Part shown: positions 28,111 to 33,920 of the stretch, piece by piece
Layout of the letters: every line of letters starts with the position of its first letter
Position numbering within the stretch: position 1 is the first letter of the stretch
NCBI GenBank assembly: GCA_018970885.1
Contig: JAGWVL010000003.1
Location: forward strand, 1-57,839
From: Actinomycetales bacterium
GTDB taxonomy: Bacteria > Actinomycetota > Actinomycetes > Nanopelagicales > Nanopelagicaceae
DNA length: 57,839 nucleotides
Reading direction: 5' to 3'
The notes under the pieces: generated by a model
What the model saw: only the letters and a program-made list of their open reading frames with translations
Database searches by the model: none
What the model was told of the DNA's origin: nothing
Position numbers and translations under genes: made by a program

Positions 28111-28170
28111 CTGTCCTCTTGATCCGTTGGTGTCAATGTAGTCTTATTGTGACAACACCTTCATTAAAAG

Positions 28171-28244
28171 TGGAGGTCGGGACGGGATTTGAACCCGTGT
28201 AGAGGGATTTGCAGTCCCTTGCCTCGCCTCTCGGCCACCCGACC
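28171..28244 (-). tRNA. tRNA-Cys (GCA)
   Basis: A 74-base gene including an encoded CCA. Acceptor GGTCGGG/CCCGACC with discriminator T, anticodon stem AGGGA/TCCCT with loop CTGCAAA (anticodon GCA), T arm GGGTTCAAATCCC. Of the three tRNAs here only this one encodes CCA. Confidence 0.96.
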
Positions 28245-28307
28245 ATACAAATATCGCCGTCAGATTTTCATCTTCGAAGAGAGTTGAATCTAAACGGCGA
28301 ACATCAG

Positions 28308-28380
28308 AGCGGACGACCGGGTTCGAACCGGCGACCTGAACCTTGGCAAGGTTCCGCGCTACCAACTGCGCTACGTCCGC
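28308..28380 (-). tRNA. tRNA-Gly (GCC)
   Basis: A 73-base gene. Acceptor GCGGACG/CGTCCGC with discriminator T, anticodon stem GAACC/GGTTC with loop TTGCCAA (anticodon GCC), T arm CCGGTTCGAACCCGG. CCA is not encoded. It is the first gene of the tRNA set on its strand. Confidence 0.96.
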
Positions 28381-28390
28381 GAGGAGAGCA

Positions 28391-28420
28391 AATCTATCGC
28401 AGGAGAGCCGTAAGCGCCAA
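28391..28420 (-). promoter_or_regulatory. Promoter of the tRNA cluster
   Basis: On the minus strand TTGGCG (28415-28420), an 18-base spacer and TAGATT (28391-28396), 10 bases before the first base of tRNA-Gly. The spacing fits a start of transcription just ahead of the tRNA. Confidence 0.6.
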
Positions 28421-28448
28421 AGTGAAGGGGATTGGTTAGCGTTACCTC

Positions 28449-29441
28449 GTGGATTATGCCAAGGATGGAGCGATATTTTGGATGGGAGGTCGATTAGCAA
28501 CAGAGCTAATCGAGGTGTCTCATGATCCTTCCTGCCTTAACGATGGGCAATTCTGGGCGGTATCTACAACATTTGAGGGAGCATTCACCGCGGCAAAGTT
28601 TGCGACAGTAGTACATGCAGATTTTCCAAATGCATCATGGAATCCAATTTCTGCGCCGTGGACAAGTACTCCTGATCAATCCGGATATATCAACTATGTC
28701 GACAGGATTCGCGAATTGATCGCACAAGGATGGGTCTACCAAGTAAATGCCTGTCGTCAGATTTGCGCAGTGGATTCCAACCCAAATTTGCGTGGACTTT
28801 TTTCACGTATCTTGGAGAACAACCCCGCGCCATGGGCGAGTTATCTCGAAATTCCCGGGATCAATATTGCTTCTGCATCTCCGGAGCTATTTCTCAAGCG
28901 ATCCGGCAGTCGCGTGAAGACATCTCCGATAAAGGGAACGCAAAGCCTTGGTTCTGGTGATTTTGGTGTCAAGGATAAATCGGAGAACATCATGATCGTA
29001 GATTTAATGCGCAATGATCTTGGGATAATCTGCAAGAGTGGATCGGTTGAAGTAACACAACTTCTCTATAGTCAAGATCACCCAGGATTACAGCACCTAG
29101 TTTCCGATGTTGAGGGTGATCTAATAGATGGAATTAGTTGGAGCGACATTTTGCGAGCGGTTTCTCCTCCTGGTTCGGTAAGCGGAGCACCTAAATCTTC
29201 AGCACTATCTACCATCTCTGACAATGAAAAACCCCGTGGCCCGTATTGCGGAGCTTTGGGCTGGGTACACGGGGATGAGGCTGAACTTTCAGTTGCTATT
29301 CGTATCTTTTGGAAAGCGGACAAACTCTTCTTTGGAACAGGTGCCGGAATTACCTTTAGCAGTGACTCGCAGAAGGAATGGGAAGAGACTGAACTAAAAG
29401 CCTCCAGATTAGTAAAGATTGCAGCAGGACTTTACAAATGA
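28449..29441 (+). CDS. pabB: Aminodeoxychorismate synthase component I
   Basis: A 330-residue chorismate-utilising enzyme. The motif PIKGT (160-164) with lysine is that of aminodeoxychorismate synthase, where anthranilate synthase has PIAGT. RNDLGIICKSGSVEV, SPPGSVSGAPK and the C-terminal FGTGAGITFSSDSQKEW are the active-site regions. It is much shorter than usual because most of the N-terminal lobe is missing. It starts with GTG, 6 bases after TAGCGT, and overlaps pabC by ATGA, which supports the p-aminobenzoate role. The amidotransferase partner (PabA) is not in the window. Confidence 0.86.
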   Translation: MDYAKDGAIFWMGGRLATELIEVSHDPSCLNDGQFWAVSTTFEGAFTAAKFATVVHADFPNASWNPISAPWTSTPDQSGYINYVDRIRELIAQGWVYQVNACRQICAVDSNPNLRGLFSRILENNPAPWASYLEIPGINIASASPELFLKRSGSRVKTSPIKGTQSLGSGDFGVKDKSENIMIVDLMRNDLGIICKSGSVEVTQLLYSQDHPGLQHLVSDVEGDLIDGISWSDILRAVSPPGSVSGAPKSSALSTISDNEKPRGPYCGALGWVHGDEAELSVAIRIFWKADKLFFGTGAGITFSSDSQKEWEETELKASRLVKIAAGLYK

Positions 29442-32192: not shown

Positions 32193-32720
32193 ATGAGCCA
32201 CGAAATCAATGGTGCAGGGATGCCCGATGGCTGGCAACGTTTATGGGCACCACATCGTCTCGAATACCTACGTGGAGAAAATAGACCACTAGCAGGCAAT
32301 GATGTCTCGTGCCCGTTTTGCGAAATTCCTGCAAAGGATGATCAAGCGGGTTTGATTGTGCACAGAGGGAAAAATGCTTATGTAGTGATGAACCTGTACC
32401 CATACAACCCAGGACATCTTTTGGTCTGTGCATTGAGACATGTTGCTGATTTAACTGATTTAACCGTTGAAGAGCGGAACGAAATTACCGATCTGACTTC
32501 TCATGCCATGACAACAATCCGCAAAGTTTCATCGCCTGAAGGATTCAACCTTGGTATGAATCAAGGAGCAATTGCGGGTGCTGGAGTAGCTGCCCACATT
32601 CACCAACATGTTGTTCCACGTTGGGGCGGGGATGCAAACTTTATGCCGATAATTGGGAAAACAAAGGTCTTACCTCAGCTGCTGCATTTGACTCGAGAAG
32701 AGATCGCAGCTGCTTGGTAG
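32193..32720 (+). CDS. HIT family nucleotide hydrolase/phosphorylase
   Basis: A 175-residue histidine triad protein. H135, H137 and H139 are in HIHQHVVPRW, and C40 and C43 (CPFC) form a probable zinc site with histidines. This branch in actinobacteria includes diadenosine tetraphosphate phosphorylase, encoded like this gene after thrS. Ap4A produced by aminoacyl-tRNA synthetases would be the natural substrate. It starts 3 bases after thrS and abuts the convergent gene with no gap. Confidence 0.9.
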   Translation: MSHEINGAGMPDGWQRLWAPHRLEYLRGENRPLAGNDVSCPFCEIPAKDDQAGLIVHRGKNAYVVMNLYPYNPGHLLVCALRHVADLTDLTVEERNEITDLTSHAMTTIRKVSSPEGFNLGMNQGAIAGAGVAAHIHQHVVPRWGGDANFMPIIGKTKVLPQLLHLTREEIAAAW

Positions 32721-33302
32721 CTATTGAAGTTCCTCAATGTACCGCCTCACAATATCGACACCGATCCCTTTTTCAATCCAGAGCGGAATCGCTGGAAAAA
32801 GTAATCCCGCAGGAAATGCTTGCTCGCCAGAGCTCTGTATCAACTCTAAGTACTCATCTCTAAACTCTTGAACCAAGGTTTGATGCTCGGGTTCACTCAT
32901 TCGGGTTGAAGGTGGAGAGGTTGAGTAATCGATGATCGATAAATCCACTAGCGAAATAAGTGCAACTGGTAACCCTTGTTCATCATGTAAAACTAAAAAT
33001 GGGGTAGCCATCGGAGCGAAAACACGATTAGCAATCATCACTGCATCATCGAAATCTGCCTCTTGCTTTTCCAAGTGCGTGACCACAACCAGACGTGGAA
33101 TTTGAAACTCATCTAGATCAGCCCACAATTGGATTGTCTGTTGATCTATGCCAGTAGCTGGATTAATTGCAAAGATGGCCAAATCGCTATCGCTGTGAAC
33201 CTCTTGGGTAAAAACACCAGCAAAGGTTTTAGCCACTAGTTCAGGCTCAGCGCTGGCATGGCCGTAGACGTGAATCTTGCCCTTGGGGATTTGTGTTTGC
33301 AC
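32721..33302 (-). CDS. Degenerate EF-G-like G domain protein (pseudo-GTPase)
   Basis: A 193-residue protein whose segments line up in order with the G domain of elongation factor G: IHVYGHASAEPEL replaces the P-loop (GHxxSGKTTL), DLAIFAINPATGIDQQTIQLW matches the avavDgveGvepqt stretch, IPRLVVVTHLEKQEADF matches the vpricfvNKmDkxgADF region with NKxD replaced by THLE, and the end LLFPAIPLWIEKGIGVDIVRRYIEEL matches the kivPV..gSA..n.GvqpLLdavv.yl region. The switch regions and DTPG are deleted. It should bind no GTP. GTG 33302 is 6 bases after TAGGCT. The function is unknown. Confidence 0.72.
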   Translation of the reverse strand: MQTQIPKGKIHVYGHASAEPELVAKTFAGVFTQEVHSDSDLAIFAINPATGIDQQTIQLWADLDEFQIPRLVVVTHLEKQEADFDDAVMIANRVFAPMATPFLVLHDEQGLPVALISLVDLSIIDYSTSPPSTRMSEPEHQTLVQEFRDEYLELIQSSGEQAFPAGLLFPAIPLWIEKGIGVDIVRRYIEELQ

Positions 33303-33308
33303 TGGGTC

Positions 33309-33318
33309 AGCCTACGAT
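33309..33318. promoter_or_regulatory. Overlapping divergent -10 boxes
   Basis: Minus-strand TAGGCT (33309-33314) is 6 bases before GTG 33302 of the EF-G-like gene; plus-strand TACGAT (33313-33318) is 8 bases before ATG 33327 of pgsA, with TTGTGT (33291-33296) as a possible -35 at 16 bases. The two boxes share two bases, so polymerase cannot occupy both. Confidence 0.5.
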
Positions 33319-33326
33319 GGTCCTTG

Positions 33327-33920
33327 ATGTTAAGCGCACGTTTAAAGCCAGCGGTCACTCGGGTTATTACCCCCGTGGCAGCTTTTGCACTGCGTCGAGG
33401 AATCACTCCGAATGTGGTTACCTGGGTAGGTGCGGTGGGCGTTGTCAGCTGCGCGCTTTACTTCTATCCGCGGGGTAATTTTTTCGTTGGAACCCTTGCA
33501 ATCTGCATACTGGCGTTGAGTGATCTTTTTGATGGAACCATGGCGAGATTATCGAGCGCAGGTTCTAGCAAGTGGGGTGGCTTCTTGGATTCGACTATTG
33601 ATCGAATAACCGATTCGTCGATTTTGATAGGTGTTTCAATCTATTTGATAAATCACGATGATCAATTGTCGTATGTAGTTTTGGGGACTCTAGTGACAGG
33701 GTTATTGGTTCCATACATACGAGCAAAAGCCGAGAGTTTTGGAATCGATTGTTCTGGAGGAATTGCAGAGCGAACCGAACGCCTAATTATATCTCTGGCA
33801 GCTATTGGATTTGATGGTTTGGGTGTTCCTTATGTGCTTGCGATTGGAATGTGGGTTCTAGCCATACTTGGATCATTCACCGTGATTCAAAGAATGTTAA
33901 TCATAAAGCGAGCAATCTAA
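33327..33920 (+). CDS. pgsA: Phosphatidylinositol phosphate synthase (CDP-alcohol phosphotransferase)
   Basis: A 197-residue membrane enzyme. The CDP-alcohol motif DG..AR........G...D...D reads DGTMARLSSAGSSKWGGFLDSTID, with about six hydrophobic helices. In actinobacteria the gene between the HIT protein and patA makes phosphatidylinositol phosphate, the base of PIM lipids. The frame is open to 33258, but ATG 33327 removes an unlikely hydrophilic leader and is 8 bases after TACGAT. Confidence 0.92.
   Translation: MLSARLKPAVTRVITPVAAFALRRGITPNVVTWVGAVGVVSCALYFYPRGNFFVGTLAICILALSDLFDGTMARLSSAGSSKWGGFLDSTIDRITDSSILIGVSIYLINHDDQLSYVVLGTLVTGLLVPYIRAKAESFGIDCSGGIAERTERLIISLAAIGFDGLGVPYVLAIGMWVLAILGSFTVIQRMLIIKRAI

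Follow-up and report, generated by a model that had tools for sequence, protein, structure and literature searches.

A reduced EF-G2 in Nanopelagicaceae: a G/G' domain without its GTP site, kept by selection and possibly a ligand of the ribosomal stalk

Why would a bacterium keep an EF-G-like G domain that has lost its nucleotide-binding motifs? The question is raised by a 193-aa frame in the window, by which we mean the whole stretch of 57,839 nucleotides that was analysed. The named relatives, among them Candidatus Planktophila and BACL15 MAGs, put the window in the acI/Nanopelagicaceae group. An earlier note on this DNA had described the frame as intact and as an EF-G-like G domain. Both points stand, the parent can be narrowed to EF-G2, and the strand is corrected to minus. 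The gene and its two neighbours are:

32193-32720, plus strand: HIT-family protein (ATP adenylyltransferase-like; under the NCBIfam cut-off), convergent neighbour
32721-33302, minus strand: reduced EF-G2, a predicted 193-aa G/G' domain pseudo-GTPase, GTG start at 33302
33327-33920, plus strand: pgsA, phosphatidylinositol phosphate synthase, divergent neighbour; its start is taken as the ATG 8 nt 3' of TACGAT

Descent from EF-G2 at the HIT-pgsA junction

The best family match of the 193-aa protein was EF-G2 (NCBIfam NF009377, E 4e-20), with residues 39-159 aligned to profile positions 102-222. The score, 71.8 bits over that part of the profile only, did not reach the curated cut-off of 890 bits, which spans five domains; full-length EF-G2 relatives scored 1094-1244 bits. 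The Pfam GTP_EFTU match was also sub-threshold (18.3 bits vs 26.5). Among solved structures, the top match was EF-G2 of M. smegmatis (PDB 9k0z, E 1e-10).

Gene order points to the same parent. In other Actinomycetes, an EF-G2 of 700-750 aa separates the HIT gene from pgsA and is encoded on the opposite strand, in the order thrS-HIT-EF-G2-pgsA-acyltransferase-pimA. The window has this order with the short form in place, its neighbours being a threonyl-tRNA synthetase, an ATP-adenylyltransferase-like HIT protein, a phosphatidylinositol phosphate synthase and a PIM acyltransferase. A survey of the thrS-pgsA junction, suggested by the earlier note, found full-length EF-G2 of 700-750 aa in this slot outside the family. 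Because full-length EF-G2 fills the same HIT-pgsA junction in the same orientation there, we infer that the gene shrank in place, and that the reduced gene is an in-place descendant of actinobacterial EF-G2. Sequence, predicted fold and synteny agree on this descent; the parent is EF-G2 specifically, which occurs at full length at the same junction across the class. An assembly or sequencing error was considered and rejected: the same short form is found in most of the family and in single-contig genomes such as G014, G015 and G110.

No second EF-G2 was found in the window's genome assembly (84% complete), where the sole full-length match, at C22, is a canonical EF-G1 of 701 aa with a GHIDAGKT-type P-loop (AHIDAGKT), DTPG and NKLD. 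Within family f1, full-length EF-G2 is known from one MAG (locus L083), whose GC of 0.53 fits the family and whose tree placement is weakly supported (0.67; 0.62 with outgroups). At that locus the gene adjoins pgsA, and HIT was not found beside it. We note that a 118-aa minus-strand ORF elsewhere in the window (28144-28500) is spurious, as it overlies tRNA-Cys and tRNA-Gly genes (28171-28244 and 28307-28380).

The location had led to the proposal that the protein regulates PIM synthesis. More broadly, the core could have been co-opted for a non-ribosomal job, for example as a scaffold or regulator of a neighbour's product (PgsA/PIM synthesis or the HIT protein), which we consider unlikely. The gene does lie beside pgsA and HIT in almost every genome examined, its promoter overlaps that of pgsA, and its most conserved parts, the G' strands and alpha4, lie off the classical nucleotide face. 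However, other families have full-length EF-G2 in this very neighbourhood, so that the adjacency is inherited, and at L083 the full-length gene adjoins pgsA without a detected HIT gene. Hence adjacency to pgsA, coming from organisms with full-length EF-G2, is uninformative on what the short form does, and we rejected a PIM role deduced from location.

Lost and retained parts of the G domain

Two segments record what was removed from the GTP site:

33243-33263, minus strand: P-loop remnant GHASAEP, residues 14-20, with GKT lost (alignment and conservation)
33186-33218, minus strand: short linker, residues 29-39, where EF-G2 switch I, beta2-beta3 and switch II/DxPG are deleted (alignment)

Alignment to full-length EF-G2 showed that the P-loop GHSGxGKT has become GHASAEPE, and that a deletion runs from switch I through switch II, including DTPG. 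The earlier note's account of these losses is thereby confirmed. A second deletion, C-terminal to the G' helix, removes the ESEDETLMDRYL... segment. The protein ends directly beyond the last G-domain helix, with no domain II behind it and domains II-V gone, which makes a role as an EF-G mimic, also raised earlier, doubtful. Neither a G1 P-loop (GxxxxGK[ST]) nor a G3 DxPG was found in the window protein or in the other reduced Nanopelagicaceae proteins tested. THLE does stand at the NKxD position, as had been noted, but it cannot be read as a sign of decay: locus L111 (a 9.2-Mb genome) has THLE in an EF-G2 of full length, and other full-length EF-G2 proteins of the class mostly have TKLD at G4.

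An AlphaFold2 model built on 56 relatives (pLDDT 92.8, pTM 0.89) matched EF-G G domains throughout in Foldseek and VIA-align searches (E to 3e-12), with Z of 18-21 and rmsd of 2.4-2.9 over about 190 aligned residues. The structural comparison that the earlier note called for thus returned a confident EF-G G/G' fold (Z about 20), and the EF-G origin of the G domain holds in both sequence and predicted fold. Read against the alignment, the model runs beta1, a short alpha1, beta4, alpha3, beta5, alpha4, four G' strands, the G' helix, beta6 and alpha5; beta2, beta3 and alpha2 are missing from the GTPase core. Class (i) pseudo-GTPases are defined as having a GTPase fold without G motifs, and include p190RhoGAP pG1/pG2, CENP-M and the fungal dynein LIC (PMC5593906). 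The alignment and predicted fold of the 193-aa protein show this combination, and we predict that it is a class (i) pseudo-GTPase, free of nucleotide.

Might the P-loop remnant nonetheless bind a nucleotide or other small ligand in a rebuilt pocket, through a GHxSA loop? G14, H15, S17 and A18 are kept in 48-52 of 56 relatives, which speaks for such a loop. However, the P-loop lysine and Ser/Thr are absent, along with the switch residues and DxPG; GHxSA itself is absent from L088-L090, L099 and L101, on branches outside the window's genus, and in L140 and L141 of family f34 the N-terminal part is missing altogether. We regard this explanation as very improbable.

Retention by selection and recurrence in other lineages

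The ORF is held by 34 of the 37 genomes of the window's genus, many of them incomplete, and by all listed single-contig genomes of the genus. Across the family, 147 of 151 genomes gave a match, a few of these being EF-G1 only or cut by contig ends. Internal stops were absent from the listed genus hits, except for one fragmented copy (G008). Median pairwise dN/dS was 0.069 for reduced EF-G2, about the same as for pgsA (0.073), and 0.036 for HIT, from pairs that are not independent and include some loci of the same genome; the value shows purifying selection. The region upstream of the gene holds two predicted promoter elements:

33309-33314, minus strand: TAGGCT, -10 box 6 nt 5' of the GTG, predicted leaderless promoter of reduced EF-G2 (upstream-region comparison)
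33313-33318, plus strand: TACGAT, likely -10 box of the divergent pgsA, with a two-base overlap with TAGGCT (sequence; block ATCGTAGGCT in most relatives)

A TANNNT hexamer ending 6-7 nt 5' of the start codon was present in 61 of 62 distinct upstream regions of relatives, vs 4.3 expected from shuffles. The TAGGCT start signal proposed earlier is therefore real, and its spacing is that expected for a predicted leaderless transcript. The two -10 boxes at 33309-33318 are divergent, TAGGCT serving reduced EF-G2 (minus) and TACGAT serving pgsA (plus). Because they overlap, and because most relatives also have block ATCGTAGGCT, use of one promoter probably precludes use of the other. In one subgroup (L013, L016, L021, L044, L048, L052 and L053), the block sits at a greater distance upstream, and a separate TATTCT box serves the gene.

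A decaying pseudogene on its way out of a streamlined genome would also lose whole domains, and the small-genome family f5 (G040, G236, G253, G269 and G284) gave no EF-G2 match at the threshold used; EF-G2 may be fully lost there. Yet frames intact in nearly all of about 150 family genomes, the low dN/dS, the conserved promoter and the confident fold refute this reading, which we consider scarcely credible; plain decay was rejected on the first three of these. The reduced EF-G2 is kept by selection, as the earlier note had supposed.

What is new is that the same reduction has recurred in other actinobacterial families. We searched the class and two further families for reduced forms, which lay at the same junction wherever the flanking genes were inspected. 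In family f34, many genomes encode full-length EF-G2 and others carry intact reduced forms, about 190-480 aa long; in family f39, forms of about 315-350 aa occur in some 20 species of genus g94. A full-length EF-G2 profile matched the reduced forms mainly at positions 108-230 or 108-290 (beta4 to G', sometimes to the G-domain end), and a few also retain some of domain II. All reduced forms tested in the three families keep part or all of positions 108-290, so that they share one core: beta4-alpha3-beta5-alpha4 plus the G' subdomain. No form with only domains II-V was noticed in f34, apart from contig-edge pieces, with a full-length query that ought to have revealed such forms. Parsimony on a tree of flanking genes, assuming no regain, gave 7-8 reductions with several nodes weak; we trust at least four.

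Reduced forms differ in how far they have gone. L147-L150 (f34, genus g87; about 375-384 aa) keep a P-loop, GPxxSGKT, and have lost DxPG, an apparent intermediate stage in loss of the GTP site. L140 and L141 (f34, genus g129; about 190 aa) begin near beta4, the whole P-loop region being lost. L084-L087 (genus g29) are intermediates of 343-349 aa with about 100 extra C-terminal residues, predicted at low confidence as beta-alpha-beta-beta-alpha-beta. By eye this extension resembled EF-G domain V; we rejected that assignment after a profile comparison (probability 1.5%; model pLDDT 47).

Where constraint lies and what the core may bind

Two further features bear on what the retained core does:

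32955-33005, minus strand: most conserved stretch, G' strands TPFLVLHDEQGLPVALI, residues 100-116 (conservation)
32823-32894, minus strand: acidic G' helix, residues 137-160, mean net charge -6.4 over 56 relatives (alignment and charge)

Conservation was highest in the first G' strand, TPYLVLH (4.1 bits), followed by the FPAIP strand (4.0) and alpha4 (3.5). Invariant residues include G51, D83, L103, L105, G110, Y126, F147, E150, F163, G166, P173 and G181. From full-length EF-G2 to the reduced form, pairwise identity went from 0.87 to 0.46 in the P-loop, from 0.47 to 0.74 in alpha4 and from 0.58 to 0.73 in G' strands 1-2; the two sets differ in depth, and only the contrast between regions counts. 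On these alignments, constraint has moved from the P-loop to alpha4 and G'. The G' helix is acidic in every one of the 56 aligned relatives, with net charges between -3 and -9. In EF-G, three glutamates of this helix are reported to contact L7/L12 (PMC8446442); E153 and E160 align with two of them and are acidic in most relatives, and the third, middle position (157) is not conserved.

We tentatively favor the explanation that the 193-aa protein binds, independently of GTP, to the factor-binding side of the ribosome, and put it, taken whole, a little short of an even chance. The acidic G' helix would bind the C-terminal domain of the stalk protein bL12; this binding would control how GTPase factors reach the ribosome, most likely when growth is slow or cells are starved; and the retained part would be an EF-G2 function that never needed GTP hydrolysis. 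Three observations on EF-G2 bear on this: (i) GTPase activity is reportedly lacking in M. smegmatis EF-G2, leaving its function ambiguous (PMC9067457); (ii) PDB 9k0z is titled 'EF-G2 bound 70S ribosome complex of M. smegmatis'; and (iii) EFG II proteins keep an acidic G' region, and their G' tip shows greater conservation than that of EFG I (PMC3150367). The simplest reading of these would be that the conserved role of EF-G2 belongs to the G' core, which would act without GTP at the bL12 stalk or the factor-binding centre. Against stalk binding, the strongest conservation falls on G' strands 1-2 and alpha4 and not only on the helix, the middle contact glutamate is not conserved, and affinity for the ribosome may be low without domains II-V.

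A less probable but serious alternative is that the conserved protein has a partner other than bL12 or a neighbour's product. It could bind another translation factor (EF-G1 or RRF), or dimerize through an exposed sheet edge. Loss of beta2-beta3 exposes such a new edge, and G' strands 1-2, alpha4 and the FPAIP strand, all strongly conserved, would suit either partner; the acidic G' helix, kept in 56 of 56 aligned relatives, argues against it. Our preferred reading remains, with the reserve stated above, an in-place descendant of EF-G2 whose nucleotide-free G/G' domain is kept by selection and would bind the bL12 stalk independently of GTP.

Known systems offer partial likenesses. Actinobacterial EF-G2 (FusA2; EFG II) is the direct ancestor, with the same locus, orientation, G/G' fold and TKLD/THLE-type G4 motif, but it has about 715 aa against about 190 in the reduced form, which lacks the P-loop, switches, DxPG, later G' helices and domains II-V. 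Bacteroides EF-G2 (Han et al. 2023), as cited in PMC12775393, is an EF-G paralogue that lacks GTPase activity and acts without GTP hydrolysis, which demonstrates that paralogues of this sort occur; it is a translocase, whereas the reduced form lacks the translocation domains. The eukaryotic class (i) pseudo-GTPases are domains of signalling, centromere and motor proteins, whereas reduced EF-G2 is bacterial, stands alone, derives from a translational GTPase and arose repeatedly. The novelty is a stand-alone, repeatedly evolved pseudo-GTPase from a translation factor, within known kinds and not a new class of system.

The function of actinobacterial EF-G2, a protein that mycobacteria also conserve, has been described as ambiguous ever since it was reported to lack GTPase activity. 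Selection appears to keep beta4-alpha4 and G', and neither the GTP site nor the translocation domains, as if nature had run a deletion experiment several times; the minimal protein points to a direct test of this old question. The conserved role of actinobacterial EF-G2 could then be GTP-independent and reside in about 180 residues, and the G/G' core, repeatedly pared down in streamlined actinobacterial lineages, could form a new stand-alone family of ribosome-stalk regulators, a proposal we make with slightly more reserve than the binding itself. For one of the most abundant freshwater groups, the finding is of a bacterial, translation-derived, stand-alone pseudo-GTPase: in these actinobacteria, with their tiny genomes, the second copy of a protein-synthesis factor is down to about 190 aa and has been kept intact. 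That its GTP-binding parts were lost yet the protein was kept suggests that the factor's job never needed GTP.
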